This document shows positions 1 to 20,922 of a stretch of 23,285 nucleotides of DNA, piece by piece. The DNA lies in the IMG/VR virus record IMGVR_UViG_3300021964_000560, positions 1 through 23,285 of that record; one strand, 5' to 3'. The notes beneath the pieces were generated by a model, which saw nothing but the letters and a program-made list of their open reading frames with translations, was not told the DNA's origin and searched no databases. The translations under genes and the position numbers were made by a program. How positions within the stretch are numbered: position 1 is the stretch's first letter; each line of letters begins with the position of its first letter. The stretch comes from a virus.

Positions 1-2
1 GA

Positions 3-764
3 GACATGGAACGTGTAGAATATACCACTGGCGATGAGGATGGCATGCTGGCCCAAATGGAGCCGCATATTCCTTATCTCGAACAAGTATATTTTGCAGG
101 TGGTGAACCTTTAATTATGAAGGAACACTACTATCTATTAGAACAATTAGTGAAACATAACAAAAACGATGTGCGTATTCAGTACAACACAAACTTTAGT
201 GAACTAAGATACAAAGATAAACATGTGTTTGACTACTGGCGTAATTTTACCAATGTCAGTGTGGGCGCAAGTTTAGATGGTATGGGTCCACAAGCAGAAC
301 TAATACGCAAAGGGACAGATTGGCAGCAGACAGAAAATAACAGACGCAGGATGATTGAGGAAACTCCCCATGTAGATTTTTATGTCAGTGCTACAGTAAG
401 TGCAATGAATGTTTTACATGTTTTAGATTTTCATCGTGCGTGGGTAGCGAAAGGATTGATACGAGCCAAGGACTTTAATGTAAATATCTGTCAGAGTCCT
501 GAATGGTATCGTGTAGACATTTTTCCTGTATGGTTTAAAGAGCAGTATATCTATCCTGCGTATGAACAGCACATTGCCTGGCTAGAACCGCAAGACGATT
601 TAAAACGTGCAACCACTGGATTTCGAAGTTTATTAAATATGATGCAGGCAAATGATGCCAGCGAACATTGGCATCGATTCGTCGAAGAAACTGACAAACT
701 CGATCGAGTTAGAAATGAAAATTTCTGGGATCTATTTCCTGAATTTGAAAAGTTAAAGCCATGA
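3..764 (+). CDS. Twitch-type radical SAM protein, C-terminal part (5' end outside window)
   Basis: The frame is open to the left edge, so the first ATG at 6 is probably internal. The visible 252 residues lack the Cys-x3-Cys-x2-Cys cluster site, which should lie upstream. They begin close to the AGGEP motif (residues 31-35 counting from that ATG), the SAM-contacting GGEP of radical SAM enzymes. A YNTN strand motif and SLDG follow, as in the two complete radical SAM genes downstream. The end carries R-x4-F-x3-FPEF, a C-terminal signature shared with the genes at 1176 and 15483. It belongs to the family with an N-terminal twitch-like Cys region and probably modifies a small molecule, sugar or peptide; the substrate is unknown. 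Its TGA overlaps the next ATG (ATGA), indicating translational coupling. Confidence 0.85.
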   Translation, partial: DMERVEYTTGDEDGMLAQMEPHIPYLEQVYFAGGEPLIMKEHYYLLEQLVKHNKNDVRIQYNTNFSELRYKDKHVFDYWRNFTNVSVGASLDGMGPQAELIRKGTDWQQTENNRRRMIEETPHVDFYVSATVSAMNVLHVLDFHRAWVAKGLIRAKDFNVNICQSPEWYRVDIFPVWFKEQYIYPAYEQHIAWLEPQDDLKRATTGFRSLLNMMQANDASEHWHRFVEETDKLDRVRNENFWDLFPEFEKLKP

Positions 765-1189
765 GTAGATTTAGTACATATGAAGTGTTATTGCGTAGAG
801 GCAATGGTTTAAATAAAACAGTCTACATACATGACTGTATGAGCGACCAAGAAGCACGAGAAACTGCAGAAGCAATGTACGGTATGGAAGTGCTACGGGT
901 GTTGTGGAAAGGTCGCACAGACGACTGGGAGAATAGAAATAACACTAGTGTTGGTTCTGTTTCCAACAATAATGACAATAAGGAAACAAGTACTATGACA
1001 TTTACCGAAATGTTAGGAGCAATATTAGTATTTGCGTTTTTGTTCTTCCTGTTTGTAATTTATGAGATGCTGTTAGCAATCTGGGCATTTATTGTTGCTT
1101 ATTGGCCGTGGATATTAGGAGTCGGTGTACTTGCGTTTTTAATCTGGGCATGGCTTTTACCGGACGAGGAAGAAAATGAAAAAGACTGA
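761..1189 (+). CDS. Small membrane protein with N-terminal soluble domain and two transmembrane helices
   Basis: This is a 142-aa protein. Residues 1-50 look like a small folded alpha/beta domain (YEVLLRRG near 7-14, then a helix rich in Ala/Glu ending in AMYGMEVLRVLW). Residues 55-80 are a polar Asn/Ser/Thr-rich linker. Residues about 84-104 and 106-133 are strongly hydrophobic and aromatic, giving two membrane helices, and the tail is acidic (PDEEENEKD). There is no signal peptide, and I do not recognise a family. It is sandwiched between radical SAM genes, overlapping by 4 bp upstream and 14 bp downstream. This suggests it anchors the tailoring enzymes or their product at the membrane, but that is inference. 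A holin-like role is possible, though the soluble N-terminus argues against it. Confidence 0.75.
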   Translation: MSRFSTYEVLLRRGNGLNKTVYIHDCMSDQEARETAEAMYGMEVLRVLWKGRTDDWENRNNTSVGSVSNNNDNKETSTMTFTEMLGAILVFAFLFFLFVIYEMLLAIWAFIVAYWPWILGVGVLAFLIWAWLLPDEEENEKD

Positions 1190-2384
1190 ATTACCCGACA
1201 CGATTTGCATGTTGCCTTGGATCAGTATAGAAACCAGTCCACATGGTACTGCTCGTCCTTGTTGTTTAAGTAGAGAAGATATTAGAGATATAGACTTAAG
1301 ACAGCACACAATTGAAGACGCCTACAAAAGTGAATATATGCAGATAATGCGTAGGCAAATGCGGGCCGGCGAAAAGCCAGATACTTGTAAACTTTGTTGG
1401 GATGAAGAAGCGGCAGGGCGTGATAGTAAACGTATTCATAGCCGTGTCAGGTTAAAACATTTATATCCCCTAGTAGACTGGTCAAATGACACACCCGATC
1501 AATTATGGTTTATAGACTTAAAACTTGGAAACATATGTAATTTGAAATGTAGAATCTGCGGTAGTTGGTCAAGCAGCAAATGGGCAGAAGAAGAAATGAA
1601 ATACTTGCCAGATCATGTTGACAAAAAAACACACATTGCCTATCAATGGTTAAAATCTGGTGCATGGCCAAGACAGAGCGAAAGATTTTGGGATAATTTA
1701 AAAACACTGCTACCACAAATAAAATACTTTGAATTTACAGGTGGTGAACCTTGGCTAATTCAAGAGCACTGGGATTTATTGCAGTATGCAGCAGACAATG
1801 GCTATAGCAAAAATATAGACATACACTATAACACTAACGCAACACAAGAACTAGGCCCACACACTATGGTGTGGGACAAATTTGGTCGTGTTGACGTAGC
1901 ATTTAGTGTAGACAATGTAAATGAACGTTTTGAGTATGAACGTTATGGCGCCGACTGGGAGCAGGCAAATAAAATTATAGATGATGTGCATTTTGCTAGA
2001 TCAGTAGACACTCCCAATATTACAACCCAACTTTGTTTCACTATTAATATTCAAAATGTCTACTACTTGGACGAATTACTGGCCTGGGCCGACACAAAAC
2101 CATTTGACAGCATATATTTTAACATGCTGCACAGTCCTGACCATATGAGTATTGCACGGATGACACCTGCAGCAAAAGAACTAGTATTAAACAAATTAAA
2201 AAGCATGTTTTGGGGAGGAGAGTTTTATCAACGTGAAATTGATAATGTGATCAAGTTTATTGAAAACGGTTCAGGCAGTGATGGCACAGAGTTTGTGCGT
2301 AAAATGACCAAAACCGATCAATATAGAAAACAGGACTTTAGACTGCTGTATCCTGAAATGGCTCGAGCAATGGGATATGACTAA
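1176..2384 (+). CDS. Twitch-domain radical SAM enzyme
   Basis: This 402-aa protein appears complete. Residues 11-30 carry C-x-LPW and a PCC pair, and residues 71-74 hold CKLC; together these resemble the N-terminal auxiliary Cys region of twitch-domain radical SAM proteins. The radical SAM site is CNLKCRIC (Cys121, Cys125, Cys128), which binds the 4Fe-4S cluster that cleaves S-adenosylmethionine. TGGEPW at 188-193 is the SAM amino-group motif. YNTN and the C-terminal RKQDF...YPEM signature follow. The ATG is preceded by GAGGA about 7 nt upstream and lies inside the end of the membrane-protein gene. The family acts in the cytoplasm by radical chemistry; the substrate cannot be inferred. It may work with the flanking radical SAM proteins as a set. 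Confidence 0.93.
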   Translation: MKKTELPDTICMLPWISIETSPHGTARPCCLSREDIRDIDLRQHTIEDAYKSEYMQIMRRQMRAGEKPDTCKLCWDEEAAGRDSKRIHSRVRLKHLYPLVDWSNDTPDQLWFIDLKLGNICNLKCRICGSWSSSKWAEEEMKYLPDHVDKKTHIAYQWLKSGAWPRQSERFWDNLKTLLPQIKYFEFTGGEPWLIQEHWDLLQYAADNGYSKNIDIHYNTNATQELGPHTMVWDKFGRVDVAFSVDNVNERFEYERYGADWEQANKIIDDVHFARSVDTPNITTQLCFTINIQNVYYLDELLAWADTKPFDSIYFNMLHSPDHMSIARMTPAAKELVLNKLKSMFWGGEFYQREIDNVIKFIENGSGSDGTEFVRKMTKTDQYRKQDFRLLYPEMARAMGYD

Positions 2385-3672
2385 ACCCGATACATTATGT
2401 ATGGCGCCATGGACGCACACATATTTAAGTCCGCAGACAGAACGCAGAATGTGTTGTGCCAGTAGAGAACCTGCACAAAACTTTCAACAATACATAGATA
2501 CCGAATCTGGTACCGGCCAGTACATTCCCATTACATTAGAAGAACACTGGAACGGCGAACATATGCGTAGTGTGCGTCGTCGTATGATGGCAGGAGAAAC
2601 ACTACCTGAGTGCGAAGTCTGTAACGACAAACTGTTAAACACAGACGTTTACCGCAGTTATTTTAATAATTTATTTGCCAATAAGTACAACGATATACTG
2701 GACACAACCGACGAGTCAGGTTATACCACAATGAAGCCTGTTAGTTGGGACTATAGGTTTAGTAACCTTTGCAACTTCAAATGTCGTATGTGTGGAGACA
2801 TGTTAAGCAGTGCTTGGGAAAGCGAGCAGCGGCAGCACAACATGATCGACTACACCAATCCAAAGAATAATTGGATGCAGCCCGAAGTCAAGCGACAGAT
2901 TGAACAGTTCCAAGACACTGAGATCGAACAAGAATTTAGCCAGGCTGTTGAAGAACACCGAGTAGAAGAAGTCTACTGGGTAGGCGGAGAGCCTTTAATG
3001 TACGACCAGCATTGGCGTTATATGCAAAGAATTATAGAATTAGGGGACGGACCAAATTTATATGCCAGATACAATACTAATCTTAGTCGCCGCGCTTATC
3101 GGGGTGTTGATCTGTTTACTGATATTCTTCCTAGGATTCGCGATTGGCAAATCTGCGCGAGCATCGACGGAACTGGAGTCATTGGAGAGTATATTAGAAC
3201 AGGTCTTGACTATAACCGATGGCTTGCGAACTTTCGTGCGGGAGTTCAAATCCAGCGTCATAAAAGGCAAATGAGATTAGACTTCACATTAACCTTACCT
3301 GGCCTGTTTGAAATAGTAAATATTCAACAACTAGCAGATGAACTAGGCGTTGACGTTCTCTCAAAAGTTGTGTTTAGTTTTAGTCCCGATATAGTAATGT
3401 CGCCGTTAGCACTACCCAAAGACATATTGCATCCGTGGGTAGACGAACTCATACCTCAGGTTAGGGGCGCCTTGCAGGACACACTCGTCCAACTAAAAAC
3501 TAGGCCAACTTTTGCGGAGCAATGGCCCGAAGAATATATTCAAGGTATTCAACGAGGCAAACAGCGTATTTTAAAACTAGAACAGATTAGAGATCAAAAA
3601 ATAACGTTTACAGACATTGTGTCTAAACGTCCTGAAACGCTCGAATGGTGGATGCAAATTGAAAACAGTTAA
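2377..3672 (+). CDS. Twitch-domain radical SAM enzyme
   Basis: This 431-aa protein is a second complete member of the same family. C-MAPW and a CC pair lie at residues 8-27 and CEVC at 79-82. The radical SAM triad CNFKCRMC is at 132-139 (Cys132, Cys136, Cys139) and VGGEP at 202-206. YNTN and SIDGTG follow the usual order. The insert between the Cys triad and GGEP is longer than in the preceding gene (about 63 residues). The C-terminus keeps the LEQIR helix but lacks a clear FPE signature. It starts 8 bp inside the preceding gene. Codon divergence between the radical SAM copies is high, so they look like old paralogues with separate substrates rather than a recent tandem duplication. Confidence 0.93.
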   Translation: MTKPDTLCMAPWTHTYLSPQTERRMCCASREPAQNFQQYIDTESGTGQYIPITLEEHWNGEHMRSVRRRMMAGETLPECEVCNDKLLNTDVYRSYFNNLFANKYNDILDTTDESGYTTMKPVSWDYRFSNLCNFKCRMCGDMLSSAWESEQRQHNMIDYTNPKNNWMQPEVKRQIEQFQDTEIEQEFSQAVEEHRVEEVYWVGGEPLMYDQHWRYMQRIIELGDGPNLYARYNTNLSRRAYRGVDLFTDILPRIRDWQICASIDGTGVIGEYIRTGLDYNRWLANFRAGVQIQRHKRQMRLDFTLTLPGLFEIVNIQQLADELGVDVLSKVVFSFSPDIVMSPLALPKDILHPWVDELIPQVRGALQDTLVQLKTRPTFAEQWPEEYIQGIQRGKQRILKLEQIRDQKITFTDIVSKRPETLEWWMQIENS

Positions 3673-4738
3673 AGTAGTATTACGTAATCCTCTAAACTAT
3701 AGTGATCAAGTCGACTATACTATAGAAGTGTTTGACAACGCACTTGCACAGGATTGGCTCCCGGCACTGAAAGAATTGTTACAAAAAAATCTTCTATTAG
3801 AAAAGAATTTTTGTTTTATAGGATTTCCTAAAACAGCAAGAACTTTAGAGTATCTCTGTAATGAATTAAATCAACATTGCAGGACTATTAATGATTATTT
3901 TATAGATTATCAAATTGAAGACCAATTCACACCAAACAATGTAGTAGGATTTGATTATGCCGAAAACGGAGTAAATCATGAAGTAATGAACAGACTGCAC
4001 AATCATTTTGAAGTCCTGCAGGGTACAGTGTGGAATTTGAGTGATTATTACAAACGTGCGGATTACGAAACAAAATATGCTATCAGACAATTAAATAATA
4101 TTTGCCACGAAATTGAAAACTTAATACTAAGTCAGCGCAAATATGTAACATATCCTTATTGGGTACGCCCAAGTCAGATTACTACATGGTTACAGGCACC
4201 TAGATATAATTTAAAGGATATACATAGAGAATTATTTTTACAAAATGGCTACGATAGAGTTTTAGGTGGGGTCTATATGCATTGGACACAGATTGGTAAA
4301 ACGCTGTTTGAAGTTTTTAGAGATGAGGGTGCACCTGAATTAACGGACACTGTCTGCGAAGCGATCACAGAGTTAAAATATTATAGTGGTGAATTTGATG
4401 TAGAATGGGGTAACGATGTTGTGTATGGTGGCAACATGTCCTGGCACAACGAGGAACAAGATTATTTTAACAAATGGCTAATTGAAAACAATCGTGATCC
4501 TAAAGATAAATCACTTAGCCTAGGATATTTGCCCATAGCACAGGTAAACTTAGAAAAAAGTTTTGGTACTACAGATTATAGAACGATTTGGGAAATTTTA
4601 GGTAATCATTTAGACATTTACAAAGTGATAGTAGACGATGTAGAACAGACATTTGACTATTGTTGGAGTGATTCTAACTACAATCAAATGCAAATAAACA
4701 TGATGAAACCAGGTTATGACTATAGTAGCAGGTGGTGA
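3659..4738 (+). CDS. Conserved-looking protein of unknown function (359 aa)
   Basis: I do not recognise this family. The most likely start is TTG at 3659, giving a natural beta-strand beginning (KTVKVVLRNPLNYSDQ) and a 14-bp overlap with the preceding gene. A longer version from TTG 3617 would add an unconvincing Cys-rich leader. The protein is soluble and rich in Tyr, Asn, Asp and Trp, with no signal peptide or membrane segment. Notable stretches are a central WVRPSQITTWL, then GGVYMHWTQIGKTLFEVFRDEGAP, then GNMSWHNEEQ. The His, Glu and Asp residues there could bind metal, but no known catalytic motif is evident. It overlaps the SGNH-like gene by 23 bp, so the two are probably co-translated. 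It may be an enzyme or structural partner in the tailoring cassette. Confidence 0.8.
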   Translation: MKTVKVVLRNPLNYSDQVDYTIEVFDNALAQDWLPALKELLQKNLLLEKNFCFIGFPKTARTLEYLCNELNQHCRTINDYFIDYQIEDQFTPNNVVGFDYAENGVNHEVMNRLHNHFEVLQGTVWNLSDYYKRADYETKYAIRQLNNICHEIENLILSQRKYVTYPYWVRPSQITTWLQAPRYNLKDIHRELFLQNGYDRVLGGVYMHWTQIGKTLFEVFRDEGAPELTDTVCEAITELKYYSGEFDVEWGNDVVYGGNMSWHNEEQDYFNKWLIENNRDPKDKSLSLGYLPIAQVNLEKSFGTTDYRTIWEILGNHLDIYKVIVDDVEQTFDYCWSDSNYNQMQINMMKPGYDYSSRW

Positions 4739-5474
4739 CAGTTTTGTTTGGGGCAGCGAATTAGCAGATAGTCCTCACGGTGGCCCTGATGGATATAGTA
4801 GAAATACATTTACTGCATTATTAGCAAACGACTATATTTGTGCTGCATATCCAGGAAACGGCAACGATGCTATTGCAAGAAATACTATAATAAGTTGCCA
4901 AGAACACAGGAATAATAATATTGGCGTTATTGTATCTTGGACGTTTACTGGTAGATATGAATTTAATTTTAGTTTTGATAAGTTGTCCGATTGGCAAACT
5001 ATAAATCATTGGACTATAGGAAACCAATTTTATAAAGAAAACGAAGAGCACAAGACTATGATTGATTGTTATTCCCAACGTGCTCAAGAAAGCGGCATAT
5101 ATGATTTTGCTGTGAATTATTTTAAACACGTAGGTAGTTCTGAATACTGGGAAATATATTCTACACTAAAAGAAATAGTATACCTACAAAATTACCTGAT
5201 TGTAAACAAAATACCTTACATGTTTACTTGTGCTGACTACAACTTTACTGAGTCATACACAATAAACAATCCAGATGTTACAATAAAATCTTTGTATAAC
5301 CAAATTGACTTCACAAAATGGTTTATTTTTCCTGATAATAAAGGCTTTTATCAATGGGCTATGGACAATAAATACCCTATAGGAGATACGCATCCTTTAG
5401 AAGAAGCGCATAGAGATGCTGCAGAATTAATGAAAGACAAATTCTATGAACTGGTTACGAAACATTTACAATAA
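4716..5474 (+). CDS. SGNH/GDSL-hydrolase-like protein
   Basis: This is a 252-aa protein. It starts TIVAGGDSFVWG, matching block I of SGNH hydrolases with Ser9 as the candidate nucleophile in GDSF. YPGNGNDAIARN near residue 45 fits the later Gly and Asn oxyanion blocks. GDTHPLEEAHRDAAELM near the C-terminus supplies the Asp/His of block V. Such enzymes are esterases or O-acyltransferases acting on sugars, glycans or lipids. There is no signal peptide, so a cytoplasmic or virion location is likely. The middle is unusually long and aromatic for a minimal SGNH domain. A second gene fragment with a similar C-terminus lies on the other strand at the right edge of the window (23068-23285). The family call is good; the substrate is unknown. 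Confidence 0.8.
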   Translation: MTIVAGGDSFVWGSELADSPHGGPDGYSRNTFTALLANDYICAAYPGNGNDAIARNTIISCQEHRNNNIGVIVSWTFTGRYEFNFSFDKLSDWQTINHWTIGNQFYKENEEHKTMIDCYSQRAQESGIYDFAVNYFKHVGSSEYWEIYSTLKEIVYLQNYLIVNKIPYMFTCADYNFTESYTINNPDVTIKSLYNQIDFTKWFIFPDNKGFYQWAMDNKYPIGDTHPLEEAHRDAAELMKDKFYELVTKHLQ

Positions 5475-5547
5475 GATTCGCTTAGAAATACGTTATCGTA
5501 AAAAATTAAAAGAACTACGCAAACGAGATCCATTTATCTACAAGTGA
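5446..5547 (+). CDS. Small basic protein (33 aa)
   Basis: This short gene begins 29 bp before the end of the SGNH-like gene and ends in GTGA, so its TGA overlaps the GTG start of the next small gene. The product is MNWLRNIYNK followed by an Arg/Lys/Leu amphipathic helix and the ending KRDPFIYK. About a third of the residues are basic. It is too short for a domain call. The amphipathic character suggests binding to membrane or nucleic acid, or simply a partner peptide. The exact coupling on both sides and the coherent composition support a real gene. I recall similar small ORFs ending in DPFIY in marine phages, but could not check. Confidence 0.6.
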   Translation: MNWLRNIYNKIRLEIRYRKKLKELRKRDPFIYK

Positions 5548-5702
5548 GAAGTCCTTGTGTAAATGTCTGTCAGATGGTCAATAATCGATGTGTTGGTTGT
5601 GGGCGTACTCTTGAAGAAATAGCAAATTGGTTAGCCTATAATAATCAACAACGTCAATTGATAATGACAAGATTACAAAATGAAAAAAATAATAGGAATT
5701 AG
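5544..5702 (+). CDS. DUF1289-like Cys-rich small protein (52 aa)
   Basis: Starting at GTG 5544, this reads SPCVNVC, then CVGCGRTLEEIANWL, then a helix with QRQLIMTRL. The arrangement SPC-x3-C ... C-x-GCGRT-x2-EI-x2-W is the signature of the DUF1289 family of small, probably iron- or zinc-binding bacterial proteins (four Cys at residues 5, 9, 16 and 19). The length is typical of the minimal family. The gene overlaps the 33-aa gene by 4 bp and the carbamoyltransferase gene by 23 bp, placing it firmly in the same transcript. The function of the family is not established. In this setting a role in metal-cluster supply or as a small redox partner is only a guess. Confidence 0.8.
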   Translation: MRSPCVNVCQMVNNRCVGCGRTLEEIANWLAYNNQQRQLIMTRLQNEKNNRN

Positions 5703-7173
5703 TGCTGGCTTTCACGACGCAGGTGTAGCAGTAATTCATGACGGCGAAATACTGTTTGCTGCACATAGCGAACGCTACAGTAAACAAAAACACGACGCAG
5801 ATGTAAATGACAAAATACTGTGCGAAGCACTAAGTTACGGCCAGCCCGACTGTCTAGCATACTACGAACGTCCATGGCTTAAAAAGATTAGACAGATATA
5901 CGGCGGACAATACGATTTAGCGTTTGACACTAGCACGCTGACTGTAAAACGTTATCTACAGAAACATACTGCAATAAAAAGTTTGAGTAAAATTAAAACA
6001 AAAACTTACAATCATCATTTAAGTCATGCAGCAGCAGGATTTCAAACAAGCACGTATGACCGTGCCACCGTAGTTGTTATTGATGCCATTGGTGAATGGG
6101 ACACTATTAGTATTTGGGCAGCAGAATATGATCGAAAAGGCAGGGCACAATATCGTAAACTTTGGAGTCAGCGTTACCCACACAGCATCGGAATGTTCTA
6201 CAGTGCTATGACCAAACACGTAGGTTTGAAACCCATGGACGAAGAATACATAATGATGGGCATGGCTGCTTACGGTAAGGTGCATTGGGACAACTTAATG
6301 AAAGCAAGATACGTTGCCAACGAGTCTGATGCGGAATTTAAAGAAAATCTGCACATTGGTGTAAATAGTACGGAATGGGCGAGTACTGAAAACTTTGATA
6401 TTGCAGCCGGCGCTCAGAGTTTAACAGAAAACTTGATTTACAATATAATGCGTAAAGCAAGGGATTTTGCATTCAGTACAAATCTTGTTTACATGGGTGG
6501 GGTAGCACTTAACTGCCTCGCAAACAGAAACTTAGGAGCGTATTTTGAAAACATTTGGATTATGCCTAATCCTGGCGATGCTGGTAGTAGTCTTGGCGCC
6601 GCTGCTTTGGCCTTTGGCGGCCGCATTCATTGGACTAATGCTTTTCTTGGCCACGATATCCCTGGCGATTACCCTTCCACTAGTGCCCTTGATATTCTTG
6701 CTAGCCAGGGAATAGTTGGCATTGCGTCAGGTCGAGCAGAATTTGGCCCCAGAGCATTGGGCAATCGTAGTCTGCTTGCCGATCCTAGAGGGCCTGACAT
6801 CAAAGACAGAGTCAACGAAATAAAGCGCCGCCAAAAGTTTCGGCCATTTGCTCCAGTAATATTAGAAGAACAAGCACAGGAATATTTCCATATGCCGCCA
6901 GGTTTTTCGAACAGTAGATATATGCAGGCTACTGCGTACTGTAGACATCCTGAACAATTTCCTGCTATAATACATTATGACGGTTCAAGCCGTGTTCAAA
7001 CTGTGCCTGCTGATGGTACGGGTATTAGAGAGTTATTAGAAAAATGGTTTGTGTTAACGGGTTGCCCGATGTTATTGAATACCAGTTTAAACATCAGAGG
7101 TGAGCCAATGGTAAATGACAGAGCAGATGCAGACAGATTTGAACGACTGTATGGTATTCGAGTTTTATCATGA
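5680..7173 (+). CDS. O-carbamoyltransferase, NodU/CmcH/TobZ family
   Basis: This is a 497-aa protein. The N-terminal Kae1-like domain begins IIGISAGFHDAGVAVI; the metal-binding motif NHHLSHAA is at 111-118 and VVVIDAIGEWDT at 131-142. YMGGVALNC at 271-279 and MPNPGDAGSSLGAA at 295-308 follow. The C-terminal carbamoyltransferase domain has GRAEFGPRALGNRS at 351-364, KFRPFAPVI at 386-394 and NTSLNIRGEPMV at 467-478. Family enzymes use carbamoyl phosphate and ATP to put a carbamoyl group on a hydroxyl, usually of a sugar or antibiotic. The protein is somewhat shorter than many bacterial members, but all main motifs are present. Its stop overlaps the oxygenase gene (ATGA). The target could be a glycan of the virion or host. 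DNA-base carbamoylation is less likely because no base hydroxylase or HMase is seen nearby. Confidence 0.95.
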   Translation: MKKIIGISAGFHDAGVAVIHDGEILFAAHSERYSKQKHDADVNDKILCEALSYGQPDCLAYYERPWLKKIRQIYGGQYDLAFDTSTLTVKRYLQKHTAIKSLSKIKTKTYNHHLSHAAAGFQTSTYDRATVVVIDAIGEWDTISIWAAEYDRKGRAQYRKLWSQRYPHSIGMFYSAMTKHVGLKPMDEEYIMMGMAAYGKVHWDNLMKARYVANESDAEFKENLHIGVNSTEWASTENFDIAAGAQSLTENLIYNIMRKARDFAFSTNLVYMGGVALNCLANRNLGAYFENIWIMPNPGDAGSSLGAAALAFGGRIHWTNAFLGHDIPGDYPSTSALDILASQGIVGIASGRAEFGPRALGNRSLLADPRGPDIKDRVNEIKRRQKFRPFAPVILEEQAQEYFHMPPGFSNSRYMQATAYCRHPEQFPAIIHYDGSSRVQTVPADGTGIRELLEKWFVLTGCPMLLNTSLNIRGEPMVNDRADADRFERLYGIRVLS

Positions 7174-16624: not shown

Positions 16625-17920
16625 TTATGCGCCTGCCAGTTCTTTTGCTTTTTCGTAATGAGCCCAAACACCAAAGGGCGGTTCACATTCAGTGTTGCCT
16701 TTGATAATGAATACAGTATCGCAGTATTCCGGGTCACCCCACGAACCATATGGATAACCATCAGTGAACATGATAAACTTCTTAGGTTGAATATCATTTT
16801 CTTTCATGTAAGTCCAGTTACAGTCGTAGTCAGTACCGCCGCCACCTTGGGGTTCATATTCCAAGATGCTGTCGAGATTGTCACTGCTGAACACTTGATG
16901 ATTGTACACTTCTGTATCAAATGACCAGATATGAATTTTATATTCATCGTAGGCTTCCATGATGCCTTTGACTTCACCCAGGAAAGCCTTGATGTCTTCG
17001 TCACCAATACTGCCCGACATGTCCAATGCGATGTGTGCTTCAATTTGGTCCCCGGGAATCATACCTGGCATAACTGCATCCATGTTCCAACCACGTCGGC
17101 TGGGACGCATCCAACTAAAGTCATCTTTAACAATACTTTGGATCTGTTGCTGAAGCAGTTCACGCCAGTCAACTACAGGTTGCGTCAAGTCTTTAATAAG
17201 ACGTTTAACACCTGAGGGCAAGTTACCTGCACCAGTGGCCTGAGCAGCCTGTAAGACTGCTTCGCGAACTTCGTCACGAATCTGACGACGTTCCTCATCG
17301 GACATTTTAGGACGACCTTTGCCGTTGCCTTCTTTGTCTCCGTCCTTGTCATCGTCCTGATCACCTGAACCTTCCTGCTCGTCGAGGTGTTCGTCAATCA
17401 TTTTTTCAATGAGATCGCCAATGTCAATCTTCTCAGCCTTTTCATATAAGTCGTCATAGACTTCTTCGGCACTCCAGCCTTGATATTTTGTGTCATGCAG
17501 GCAAGGAGTAATCTTGTCGCCAATCCGTTGTTCAACCAAGTCTGCGTTTACGCAAAAGTCTGCGGCGCAGTTAAAAAGCATGGGGTCACGATCTGGACCG
17601 CAACGACCCATATGGTCGTAGACGTTATGTAAAACTTCATGTCCAAATAAGAATTCAAGTTCTTTGGGTTTGAGTTTGTTTACAAATTCGGTATTGTAGT
17701 AAAATTTCCTGCCATTGGTTGCGGCAGTGCCACACCACGAATCAGCATTAACCAATTCCAAGCGAGTAGCCAAGTTACCAAAAAACGGAGCACGAAGCAA
17801 CAAGCCAATTCGAGCAGTGGTCAATTTTTCACGCACCGCACGATCCAATGCGGGATCTGTCGTTTCGGTTAGCCTGCCAGCAATGCCGGACTTGGGATTA
17901 GTTGTAGTATCTTTTGACAT
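16625..17920 (-). CDS. HEXXH metallopeptidase-like protein with C-terminal VWA domain
   Basis: This is a 431-aa protein. The N-terminal domain (about 25-165) has the zinc motif HEVLHNVYDH (His94, Glu95, His98), typical of VWA-like predicted metallopeptidases. Residues 175-205 are an acidic Asp/Gly/Glu linker. Residues about 293-430 form a VWA fold with the MIDAS motif DMSGS (Asp300, Ser302, Ser304), a GGGGTDY loop and FTDGYP. Such proteins pair with MoxR-type AAA+ ATPases as chaperone or insertase-like machines, and a MoxR ATPase gene lies directly upstream. The pair may process or remodel a host or virion protein; whether the HEXXH is active is unknown. It has its own sigma70-like promoter and an AGGAG ribosome site. 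Confidence 0.9.
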   Translation of the reverse strand: MSKDTTTNPKSGIAGRLTETTDPALDRAVREKLTTARIGLLLRAPFFGNLATRLELVNADSWCGTAATNGRKFYYNTEFVNKLKPKELEFLFGHEVLHNVYDHMGRCGPDRDPMLFNCAADFCVNADLVEQRIGDKITPCLHDTKYQGWSAEEVYDDLYEKAEKIDIGDLIEKMIDEHLDEQEGSGDQDDDKDGDKEGNGKGRPKMSDEERRQIRDEVREAVLQAAQATGAGNLPSGVKRLIKDLTQPVVDWRELLQQQIQSIVKDDFSWMRPSRRGWNMDAVMPGMIPGDQIEAHIALDMSGSIGDEDIKAFLGEVKGIMEAYDEYKIHIWSFDTEVYNHQVFSSDNLDSILEYEPQGGGGTDYDCNWTYMKENDIQPKKFIMFTDGYPYGSWGDPEYCDTVFIIKGNTECEPPFGVWAHYEKAKELAGA

Positions 17921-18040
17921 TTCTGCTCCTTGTTATTGTATATTATACTACCAATTTGAATTATTGTCTATTAATACTAAAGTATTAAAAGGGGAGGACT
18001 TACATGGTAAAGAAAGGAGTAAGACCAATGCCTCCATAAA
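17921..18040 (-). promoter_or_regulatory. Promoter A with palindrome, upstream of the VWA gene
   Basis: This 120-bp gap holds a sigma70-like promoter read leftwards: -35 TAGACA (17970-17965), 17-bp spacer, -10 TATAAT (17947-17942). TACTWWAGTA (here TACTAAAGTA on the plus strand, 17975-17984) lies 4 bp upstream of the -35, inside the longer palindrome TTAATACTAAAGTATTAA (17971-17988). The spacer shares AGACAATAATTCA with the promoter at 19.2 kb. AGGAG precedes the ATG. The part from 17989 to 18040 shows no convincing gene or terminator. Confidence 0.65.
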
Positions 18041-19147
18041 CTATCGATTGCCGGCGCTTGCGGCTACAATGTACTTACCAAACCTCTTGTGGAACTCATC
18101 GAAATTCTTGAGTTTGCCAGGAACAAACGGCAGGTTGTAAGTGGTAAGAGCAGTACGAGCACCCATAACAGTCAACTCCGTTGTAAAATTATCCATCATA
18201 TAACGGAAGAAGTTATCTGCCATCTCATGCCATTCTGCATTAGGCTTGCCACCAATCTTGTCTGCGGCATCCTTAAGTTCGTAGCACATACTGACTACCA
18301 AACTGTACATGGCGCTGACTTCTTTTATTTTGAGTTCTTTGACCTTACCAGCCAATACATCTTCAGGCTTGGGTAACTGTCCGGCAATCTTGCGGTGAGC
18401 CATAAACTTAACAGCCACACCTTCACCCACAGCACCTGTTACCAAGTCAGTGAGATCTGCCTCACCTACATCCTCATCTTCAAGGATTTCGCTAACAAAA
18501 GTCCACGAGCGAGGCGTAGCAAAACTACGACTGCTACTACGCGGATCAAAGTCGTATAGGTCCTGCTTGGCAAAACCAATGTAACCTACCACGTCTTTGT
18601 GGATACGGTTAATGGTAGCCCAAGTCTCCCATGCTTGGTGGTCTACTCGCATCTCCAAGTGCAGGAAACGGTTAGCCAACGGAGCAGGCATACGATAAGT
18701 AACACCCTTGTCCGATTCACGGTTACCAGCCGCAATCACTACCACATTGTCAGGCAGTTTATACTTGCCAATTCGGCGGTTAAGAATCAACTGATAAGCC
18801 GCAGCCTGGATGCTGGGAGCCGCTGAGTTCATCTCGTCCAAGAACAAAACGACCACAGGATACTGACTGGCCAACTCTTCGTCGGGCAAGTCAATGGGCG
18901 GTGCCCAATCCATCAAGCCATTGTCTTTATTGTAGTAAGGGATACCACGCAGGTCGGTGGGCTCCATTTGTGCCAGGCGCAGGTCAATCATTAGACCCTT
19001 TTGCTCTTCAGCAATACTGGCAACCACTTCACTTTTGCCAATGCCTGGAGGACCCCAGAGAAATACCGGACGCTTCTTGTCAAAGCATTTTGTAATCAAC
19101 CGTTTTGCCTGCTCGGTAGTAACGGTGCGATGTTCACTTACTGTCAT
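18041..19147 (-). CDS. MoxR-family AAA+ ATPase (phage CobS-like)
   Basis: This 368-aa protein has Walker A GPPGIGKS (32-39), Walker B VVLFLDEMN (99-107) and sensor-1 VVIAAGNRE (136-144, Asn142). MPAPLANRF (153-161) places an arginine-finger type residue. DLRLAQMEPTDLRGIPYY is the MoxR/CobS-type insert. Such ATPases remodel proteins together with VWA partners, and the VWA+HEXXH gene follows on the same strand. Marine T4-like phage homologues are often labelled cobS (cobaltochelatase subunit). No other cobalamin gene is present here, so a generic MoxR role is the safer reading. A GGAG ribosome site and its own promoter precede it. Confidence 0.94.
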   Translation of the reverse strand: MTVSEHRTVTTEQAKRLITKCFDKKRPVFLWGPPGIGKSEVVASIAEEQKGLMIDLRLAQMEPTDLRGIPYYNKDNGLMDWAPPIDLPDEELASQYPVVVLFLDEMNSAAPSIQAAAYQLILNRRIGKYKLPDNVVVIAAGNRESDKGVTYRMPAPLANRFLHLEMRVDHQAWETWATINRIHKDVVGYIGFAKQDLYDFDPRSSSRSFATPRSWTFVSEILEDEDVGEADLTDLVTGAVGEGVAVKFMAHRKIAGQLPKPEDVLAGKVKELKIKEVSAMYSLVVSMCYELKDAADKIGGKPNAEWHEMADNFFRYMMDNFTTELTVMGARTALTTYNLPFVPGKLKNFDEFHKRFGKYIVAASAGNR

Positions 19148-19217
19148 AAAATACTCCTTTCAACATATCTATATTATATGACTTTTCTGAATTATTGTCT
19201 GTAGTTTTTTTACAACA
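19148..19217 (-). promoter_or_regulatory. Promoter B, upstream of the MoxR gene
   Basis: Reading leftwards: -35 CAGACA (19201-19196), 17-bp spacer, -10 TATAAT (19178-19173), then GGAG before the ATG at 19147. The 13 bases AGACAATAATTCA are identical to promoter A and sit at the same distance from the -10. The TACTWWAGTA palindrome is absent here; an A/T run is found instead. Confidence 0.65.
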
Positions 19218-19586
19218 CTACCACGAACTATTGTAAAAAACTTTCAAACCCAAGAACAGTTCTGCCCGGGCATTTCGGACGAACTCTAATACTGATTGCT
19301 TATAGTAATTGTCACTGTCTTCGCCAAAAAAGAACCCTTTAGTTTGCGGTAGTTGGTCATTAATTACTGCCTGTTCTAAGTTTTTGAGATCATCCCAAGA
19401 GAGTTCCAACTCAACGCCGTTGAACATATTATTGCCTTCTGCATTATAGTCAGGATTTCGTTTGGCCCAGATTTGTTCCATCCAACCCTGAAGGTTGGGA
19501 TGTTTACGCCAGTAGGCAATTTCTCGGCTTTCGTCCCACGTGCCTTCTTTGTTGGCACGGCAGTATGCAAATTGATCCAACCCCAT
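19218..19586 (-). CDS. Unknown protein of the MGLDQFAYCR type (122 aa)
   Basis: The ATG at 19586 overlaps the previous stop by one base (TAATG), giving MGLDQFAYCRAN. This resembles the widespread MGLDMYLYA family start. IAYWRKHPNLQGWM and a later DDLKNLEQAVI fit the family, as do KGFFFGEDSDNYYKQSVLEFV and the end LGLKVFYNSSW. Members occur in bacteria and phages and have no established function. It is soluble, with no membrane segment. It is probably co-transcribed with the 92-aa and 89-aa genes upstream. Confidence 0.85.
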   Translation of the reverse strand: MGLDQFAYCRANKEGTWDESREIAYWRKHPNLQGWMEQIWAKRNPDYNAEGNNMFNGVELELSWDDLKNLEQAVINDQLPQTKGFFFGEDSDNYYKQSVLEFVRNARAELFLGLKVFYNSSW

Positions 19587-19864
19587 TATACAGCCTCCAA
19601 CATGTTGGCAGGCACACGCCACAGGCCATAGCCTGGACTGCGGACAGTGACATACTTACGAGCAATCTTAGTGACATCACCGACATAAGTCTGACCATTG
19701 CGACTGCTAGTGAACTTAACCTTGGTGCCTATAACCAGGCTACCACGATTTTCTTTTACCAACTGATTACGAGCAAATTTAATTGCCATTGAAATACTGT
19801 TCAACTGCTCGTTGGTAAAGTTACCAGAGATGATAGCGTGATTGATGTCGTTGATTGAAACCAT
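19586..19864 (-). CDS. Small protein with KOW/SH3-like C-terminal domain (92 aa)
   Basis: Residues 1-38 are helical (SINDINHAIISGNFTNEQLNSISMAIKFARNQL). Residues 42-90 look like a small beta-barrel: SLVIGTKVKFTSSRNGQTYVGDVTKIARKYVTVRS then GLWRVPANML. This is a KOW/SH3-like fold that often contacts RNA or ribosomes. The function is unknown. A strong AAGGAG ribosome site precedes the ATG. It lies 11 nt after the 89-aa gene and is coupled to the 122-aa gene. I recall phage proteins with the NDINxAIISGxF start, unverified. Confidence 0.85.
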   Translation of the reverse strand: MVSINDINHAIISGNFTNEQLNSISMAIKFARNQLVKENRGSLVIGTKVKFTSSRNGQTYVGDVTKIARKYVTVRSPGYGLWRVPANMLEAV

Positions 19865-19875
19865 TTTAGTTCTCC

Positions 19876-20145
19876 TTAAGCCAAGTCAACTTGAACAGGC
19901 GTAATGCTACCATTCACGCCGTTATAATTAAAGCCAAAACCAACAGGCATTTCTTTGTCGCCACGACGTTTTGCATGACGGCGTTCTTTTGCCAAATTCA
20001 TAAGAGCGAGTTGAGTCGCTATCGCATGCTGATTAGTGCAGATATCGGCAGTGCCAGCCACTGTGGTGTAAAAACCAACACCATCGACAATAACACGAAT
20101 ACGTTGGCTGTTTTTGAAGCCGGTGATAAAAGTGGGTGTACGCAT
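19876..20145 (-). CDS. Unknown small protein (89 aa)
   Basis: The function is not recognised. It starts with a beta-rich segment (RTPTFITGFKNSQRIRVIVDGVGFYTTVAG). A helix with ATQLALMNLAKERRHAKRRGDKEMP follows, strongly basic in the middle, and then a Gly/Asn/Val-rich tail. The basic helix could bind nucleic acid. It is the first gene behind promoter C and has a GGAG ribosome site 7 nt before the ATG. Neighbouring genes are of the same size and style. Confidence 0.82.
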   Translation of the reverse strand: MRTPTFITGFKNSQRIRVIVDGVGFYTTVAGTADICTNQHAIATQLALMNLAKERRHAKRRGDKEMPVGFGFNYNGVNGSITPVQVDLA

Positions 20146-20232
20146 TTCAAACTCCTTTTCTTACACTATGCCTATATTATAGCAAAATGACGAATTTCGA
20201 GCAAGTACTACTTTAGTAGTAATACTTTAGTA
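20146..20232 (-). promoter_or_regulatory. Promoter C with two palindromes, upstream of the 89-aa gene
   Basis: Reading leftwards: -35 TTGCTC (20204-20199), 17-bp spacer, extended -10 TGCTATAAT (hexamer 20181-20176), GGAG, ATG at 20145. TACTTTAGTA (plus strand) occurs twice, at 20209-20218, which is 4 bp from the -35, and again at 20223-20232, touching the stop of the preceding gene. Flanks are nearly identical to promoter D. Confidence 0.7.
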
Positions 20233-20472
20233 CTACCATTCTTTCTTGCCGCCCAATTCTTCGTTCCAGTCATAGCCCGCATTGTATTCGGCTATCTGAT
20301 CCTTGGTCATAAAACGCTCTTCAATCTCGTCACTTTGATAAGTGGCATCTGTGAAAAAGTGTGGGCGACGTGGACGGCTGTACCAACTGTCAGCGGAGCC
20401 ACGGTCAAATGGACCACCGTGGCGTCCGTCGTAAAATCTGCCCTTGTATTCTTTAATTTCGGTGCTTTGCAT
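20233..20472 (-). CDS. Unknown small protein with DRGSADSWYSRP motif (79 aa)
   Basis: The protein is rich in charged and aromatic residues: GRFYDGRHGGPFDRGSADSWYSRPRRPHFF, then MTKDQIAEYNAGYDWNEELGGKKEW. The DRGSADS-x-Y-x-RP-x2-PH and AY-x-AGY-x2-NE pattern recalls a small family seen in aquatic bacteria and phages. Its function is not established. It is soluble and likely compact. A clear GGAG ribosome site precedes the ATG, and promoter D lies directly upstream. Confidence 0.85.
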   Translation of the reverse strand: MQSTEIKEYKGRFYDGRHGGPFDRGSADSWYSRPRRPHFFTDATYQSDEIEERFMTKDQIAEYNAGYDWNEELGGKKEW

Positions 20473-20550
20473 TTATTACTCCTTTTCTTTAACCTATTCC
20501 ATATTGTAGCAAAAAAAGGAATATTCTGCAAGTACTACTTAAGTATTAAT
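20473..20550 (-). promoter_or_regulatory. Promoter D with palindrome, upstream of the 79-aa gene
   Basis: Reading leftwards: -35 TTGCAG (20531-20526), 17-bp spacer, extended -10 TGCTACAAT (hexamer 20508-20503), GGAG, ATG at 20472. TACTTAAGTA (20536-20545) is a perfect palindrome exactly 4 bp upstream of the -35 and overlaps the stop codon of the preceding gene. The block GCAAGTACTACTTAAGTA matches promoter C at 17 of 18 bases. Confidence 0.7.
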
Positions 20551-20922
20551 TTCCAAGTTATCCAAGTATGAGCGCAAGTCACCGTCCATCAGACTCAACA
20601 TACTGGCTTCGGTTTCGTCAAACACAATTATTTTTTTATTTTGAAACAAGTAGTAAGGACCTTGAAAGTATCGTTCAAGTTGGATAAGGTTTTTACTGGA
20701 CAAAGGCGACTTTAATGTATACTCGTAACCTTTTAGTTTAACATTGTCCATTAAAAATTGATAACCAATTAAGTTTAATCTCAGACTTTCATTGTCTACA
20801 GGATTAAACCAAATGCGGCGTTGCCAGGTACTTAGTTGTTGTACAGGTATATTCGACGAAGTCAGAAATACTTCGGTCAACTGTCTTTGTGTATACCTTT
20901 TAGGGGAAGATTTGGTCACCAC
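20539..20922 (-). CDS. Unknown phage protein (127 aa)
   Basis: The function is not recognised. The likely start is GTG at 20922 or the adjacent GTG at 20919, giving a 20-23 bp overlap with the preceding gene; a TTG further in cannot be excluded. The sequence is mixed alpha/beta: TQRQLTEVFLTSSNIPVQQLSTWQRRIWF, then LRLNLIGYQFLMDNVKLKGYEYTL, then GPYYLFQNKKIIVFDETEASMLSLMDGDL. It has no Cys, no membrane segment and no known motif. The pattern of a DNA-binding-like first third followed by a beta-strand region could suit a small regulator. Confidence 0.78.
   Translation of the reverse strand: MVTKSSPKRYTQRQLTEVFLTSSNIPVQQLSTWQRRIWFNPVDNESLRLNLIGYQFLMDNVKLKGYEYTLKSPLSSKNLIQLERYFQGPYYLFQNKKIIVFDETEASMLSLMDGDLRSYLDNLEINT

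Follow-up and report, generated by a model that had tools for sequence, protein, structure and literature searches.

Why should one short palindrome stand at the same distance in front of three promoters of a viral DNA? The stretch analysed here, referred to as the window, is a virus record of 23,285 bases, itself a fragment. A first-pass annotation had noticed that the palindrome, TACTWWAGTA, lies 4 bp from the -35 hexamer of three promoters that have 17-bp spacers, and had taken this fixed spacing as a sign of a regulator site. Our scan of the window confirmed its four exact copies, at 17975-17984, 20209-20218, 20223-20232 and 20536-20545, and gave no others, 0.25 copies being expected from base composition (probability of four or more, about 1.4e-4). 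The distances and spacers were also correct at all three promoters, named P1, P2 and P3, which lie on the minus strand and precede a VWA-type gene and two small genes. Here, we propose that the palindrome is the centre of a larger dyad, which is a putative operator for a dimeric, most likely phage-encoded protein and serves a subset of sigma-70-type early promoters. We give this reading a probability of about two in three.

The symmetry of the sites extends beyond the 10-bp core, and the four copies of TACTWWAGTA are the cores of an 18-bp dyad, GTARTACT-NN-AGTAYTAC. The 4-bp gap is thus the outer arm of the dyad, whose edge touches the -35 at all three promoters (Table 1). P2 and P3 have poor -35 boxes, which match three of six consensus letters. 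P2 has two dyads, P2a and P2b, which overlap by 4 bp, and P2a is the only one in the window that matches the consensus of the relatives in full. The P1 dyad is identical in one relative (locus L001), in which the promoter spacer has diverged. Stop codons of upstream genes are found within the window dyads: P2a holds the TAG of the 79-aa gene and the P3 dyad holds the TAA of gene 20539-20922.

Table 1 Dyads, promoters and downstream genes at P1, P2 and P3 in the window.
Feature	Positions	Strand	Description
P1 dyad TTAATACTTTAGTATTAA	17971..17988	-	adjoins -35 of P1 (VWA gene); mismatches to consensus of relatives: 2
P1 promoter	17942..17970	-	-35 TAGACA (17965-17970), 17-bp spacer, -10 TATAAT (17942-17947)
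P2b dyad TTACTACTAAAGTAGTAC	20205..20222	-	abuts -35 of P2; 3 mismatches
P2a dyad GTAGTACTAAAGTATTAC	20219..20236	-	14 bp from -35 of P2; 0 mismatches
P2 promoter	20176..20204	-	-35 TTGCTC, 17-bp spacer, -10 TATAAT
P3 dyad TTAATACTTAAGTAGTAC	20532..20549	-	abuts -35 of P3; 2 mismatches
P3 promoter	20503..20531	-	-35 TTGCAG, 17-bp spacer, -10 TACAAT
VWA-type gene	16625..17920	-	downstream of P1; 431 aa; PHROG 1314, there named HNH endonuclease
89-aa gene	19876..20145	-	downstream of P2; no assigned function
79-aa gene	20233..20472	-	downstream of P3; no assigned function

The annotation had placed a MoxR/VWA and small-gene block under the control of these sites. This holds for the VWA gene and the two small genes, but the MoxR promoter (19173-19201), which was checked for the 18-bp dyad, has none, so the proposed block is covered only in part. 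The VWA and MoxR promoters share AGACAATAATTCA, which runs from the -35 into the spacer, and the dyad is found only at the former. Paired dyads or half-sites about 14-16 bp apart, as at 20205-20236, are also seen at some promoters of relatives (loci L398, L401, L403 and L408) and might permit joint binding. Part of P2 resembles the Xanthomonas LexA box; a LexA reading was set aside on inspection, as the dyad of the relatives is centred elsewhere. Elsewhere in the window (1-7173), several large genes resemble, by eye, radical SAM proteins and one appears carbamoyltransferase-like.

Relatives were collected, independently of the motif, with MoxR and the product of the 79-aa gene as protein queries, which gave 160 loci. 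A strong GGTTGACC / TATAAT signature is common to the early promoters of these loci. When the two arms were scanned with a variable centre, the dyad with its 2-bp centre gave 12, 16 and 18 sites with 0, 1 and 2 mismatches, and other centres gave few sites, save for a minor 5-bp variant. The dyad occurs at 26 of the 396 strict promoters in these loci, compared with 0.05 on average and 2 at most for about 200 dyads built from shuffled half-sites. IMG/VR was then scanned for the exact dyad alone, and at least 119 distinct sites were found. Among the 119 listed, 78 have a strict promoter within 60 bp downstream, and with the strict pattern none overlaps a promoter or lies downstream of one; a relaxed promoter pattern places about 100 of them upstream of a promoter. 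The promoters with a dyad are near consensus, and in 81% the -35 has at least five of six letters.

Because the window is only a fragment, the promoter association was examined in larger records; the first-pass annotation had stated that an equal frequency of the motif inside genes and away from promoters would refute its proposal. Nine of the ten dyads listed in G016 (214 kb; its tiles overlap, and one dyad is listed twice) and seven of seven in G017 (300 kb) lie upstream of a strict promoter, about 0.1 being expected in each, and the regulator proposal came through this test. In G001, four of ten dyads are at strict promoters (about 0.1 expected) and most of the remainder are at weaker ones; G013 has dyads, none of them at a strict promoter. 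Viewed from the promoters, a dyad accompanies about 9 of the 38 strict ones in G016 and about 7 of the 57 in G017. A BLAST search of a dyad-promoter segment against cultured phage records gave nothing useful, and alignment on loosely defined -10 boxes gave no informative palindrome profile.

The dyad lies about 0, 10, 21, 33, 41 or 51 bp from the -35, distances that increase by roughly one turn of the helix each time, with the caveat that over all 118 clusters listed R is 0.52 at 10.5 bp and peaks at 0.59 near 11.25 bp. The combined dyad and promoter scans were complete for gaps of 0-7 and 12-29 bp and comprise the matches listed for gaps of 7-13 and 29-58 bp. Among these matches, the pooled clusters fall at gaps of 0-2, 8-12, 18-26 (peak 20-21), 29-37 (peak about 32-34), 40-42 and 51-52 bp. 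The ranges 3-7, 13-17 and 27-28 bp were empty in the complete scans, and no match was listed at 47-50 bp. For gaps of up to 30 bp (61 clusters), the best period is 10.25-10.5 bp, with R of 0.68, and p is about 0.002 when the 8-12 class is left out; such p-values are indicative only, since the clusters are not fully independent. The sites at 24-26 bp have a second half-site closer to the promoter. The 29-37 bp class includes terminators of near-constant length, which may shape its peak, and the spacing classes may stem in part from a few inherited cassette types. That the distances in relatives follow the DNA helix lends support to the regulator site first suspected from three promoters.

A protein site in DNA and a structure in RNA make different demands on the two arms of the dyad. 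Arm positions 4 (A or G) and 15 (C or T) vary independently (A-C 41, A-T 42, G-C 11, G-T 11), which is expected if a protein dimer reads two half-sites but not if the arms pair in RNA. This bears on the explanation that the dyad marks a junction of the PeSL (promoter-early stem-loop) type. In that case it would be a recombination joint, or would act in the RNA of the upstream operon as a stem-loop or terminator, and its closeness to promoters would simply follow from the movement of whole terminator-promoter cassettes in T4-like phages. The anatomy of the junctions has features that fit: the stop codon (TAA or TAG) of the longest upstream frame lies inside the dyad in 58 of about 88 junctions listed, the frames that end there belong to many unrelated families, and upstream and downstream families are mixed across junctions (for example, 16 sites with one upstream family have seven downstream families). 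Many dyads of the 8-12 bp class are also followed by a T-rich tract, but no such tract was found at dyads that abut the -35, and the 29-37 bp class has a GC-rich terminator of its own, separate from the dyad; such a separate terminator is present in many junctions. Moreover, A-C at the two varying positions is as common as A-T, the commonest asymmetric form of the dyad folds at only -0.5 kcal/mol, and helical spacing is not predicted by recombination alone. We therefore regard a PeSL-type origin as improbable. The narrower reading as a terminator or RNA hairpin is disfavoured by the absent arm covariation and the separate terminators, in agreement with the first impression that the sites in the window do not look like terminators.

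If the dyad is bound by a protein, that protein could also repress. A phage dimer that contacts the polymerase and holds or hinders it could shut down some of the early promoters at a later stage of infection, and GalR at -60.5, which represses gal P1 through contact with the alpha-CTD of the polymerase (PMC4693257), is a precedent for such an action. The near-consensus sequence of the promoters agrees with this, but the promoter core is overlapped by none of the sites listed under the strict pattern, and in the window the -35 boxes next to the dyads are weak, which suits a helping protein better than a hindering one; we consider a negative operator rather unlikely. It is very unlikely that the phage exploits the operator of a host regulator. 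The promoters are of the host sigma-70 type, and the hosts of the contigs may be unsampled; however, only 102 exact copies, scattered over unrelated phyla, were found in the genomes of 84,980 species of bacteria and archaea (257 billion bases). A simple estimate with equal base frequencies gives about 240, so there is no sign of a host regulon. Moreover, one phage record, G002, has a different dyad at the same promoter type.

G002 lacks the first dyad and has this other one, GGTWAGTGCNNACTWACC, at five promoters (loci L636, L640 and L599). The GGTWAGTGCNNACTWACC family lies upstream of early promoters, and in loci L471 and L075 it occurs in the same promoter region as the first dyad. The search for a DNA-binding phage protein, which the first-pass annotation had recommended, was made with Pfam scans of 154 proteins of G016, and the HTH_39, SutA-like and AbrB-like candidates were followed over 20 records; among these candidates, no gene tracks the dyad. 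The HTH_39 winged-helix protein was rejected, being absent from G001, which has the dyad, and present in G009, which is dyad-free and in which its recognition helix resembles that of dyad-bearing G005. The SutA-like RNA polymerase-binding domain was rejected as it scored above the cut-off in only one of the 20 records, and a small HTH-like protein adjoining MoxR as it is also found in loci without a dyad. The AbrB-like protein of 62 aa is present in 16 of the 20 records, dyad-free ones included, and absent from G013 and G018. It is fast-evolving (L595:9843-10046 in G016, and homologues).

In the mechanism that we propose, a dimer bound to the dyad would always face RNA polymerase from the same side of the DNA helix and regulate it by contact. 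With transcription assumed to start 7 bp past the -10, its centre would lie at about -44.5 when the dyad abuts the -35, and at about -54.5, -65.5, -77 and beyond at distal sites. The putative operator would serve, in the window, the VWA gene and the two small genes. The dyad is often found at a compact gene junction, where it holds the stop codon of the upstream gene, and a GC-rich terminator sometimes precedes the -35. The helical register, together with the absence of dyads from the core promoter, favours an upstream protein that contacts RNA polymerase, as CRP does. With less confidence, we infer activation or tuning rather than simple blocking, because none of the dyads listed covers the promoter core; since the promoters with a dyad are already near consensus, a need for activation is not evident. 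A more specific version, which we hold only tentatively, is that jumbo T4-like phages have a hitherto unrecognized dimeric regulator of a subset of early genes, whose operator also supplies the upstream stop codon and a joint for the exchange of early-gene cassettes, and that the operator sequence has diverged in related phages. The use of GGTWAGTGCNNACTWACC by G002 at the same promoter type would then mean that specificity has diverged.

The dyad is found upstream of many early promoters in large T4-like phages, usually near a whole number of DNA turns, and is most likely the docking site of a putative phage regulator that touches the polymerase. The closest known arrangement is that of the PeSL cassettes described in T4-like phages (Arbiol 2010; Comeau 2014, as cited in PMC4503421 and PMC5348500). 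These are compact junctions across which genes are exchanged and which combine an early promoter of sigma-70-like type with an inverted repeat and, often, a terminator. The junctions described here resemble them in their compactness, in having a strong early promoter of this type, an inverted repeat and often a terminator, and the mixing of gene families across them may reflect a similar exchange. The repeat that recurs here differs from that of the cassettes in being a DNA dyad that shows no stem covariation, stands apart from the terminator, keeps helical register with the promoter and usually holds the upstream stop codon. Judged from its sequence, the dyad itself does not appear to be a terminator-type inverted repeat, having no covariation, no T tract when it abuts the -35 and a weak fold. 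The embedded stop codon suggests how exchanged regulatory cassettes could keep genes intact. Activation by CRP depends on the position of its site with a period of about 10.5 bp, and the dyad is like such upstream activator sites in lying upstream of the -35 with a similar distance preference (PMC6301791). It differs from CRP sites in sequence, phase and binding protein, which is putative here and probably phage-encoded, and in that its promoters are near consensus. As in class I and class II operators, dyad symmetry and a fixed centre are seen, and the sequence evidence suggests that the site is read as DNA; its distances follow the helical repeat, but the period over the 118 clusters is nearer 11.25 than 10.5 bp. 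In the middle promoters of T4, the place of the -35 is taken by MotA boxes, which are found near -30. Like them, the dyad is a DNA element that is specific to the phage and sets apart some of the promoters used by the host polymerase, but it lies further upstream, in front of a -35 that is kept intact. Early transcription in T4-like phages relies on the host polymerase and on strong promoters, and until the middle stage the phage exerts little control over individual promoters. An operator specific to the phage and held in helical register with some of the early promoters would point to an additional tier of regulation in a large group of mostly uncultured phages, in which the dyad sites would delimit a regulon from sequence alone and could serve as bait for finding its regulator.
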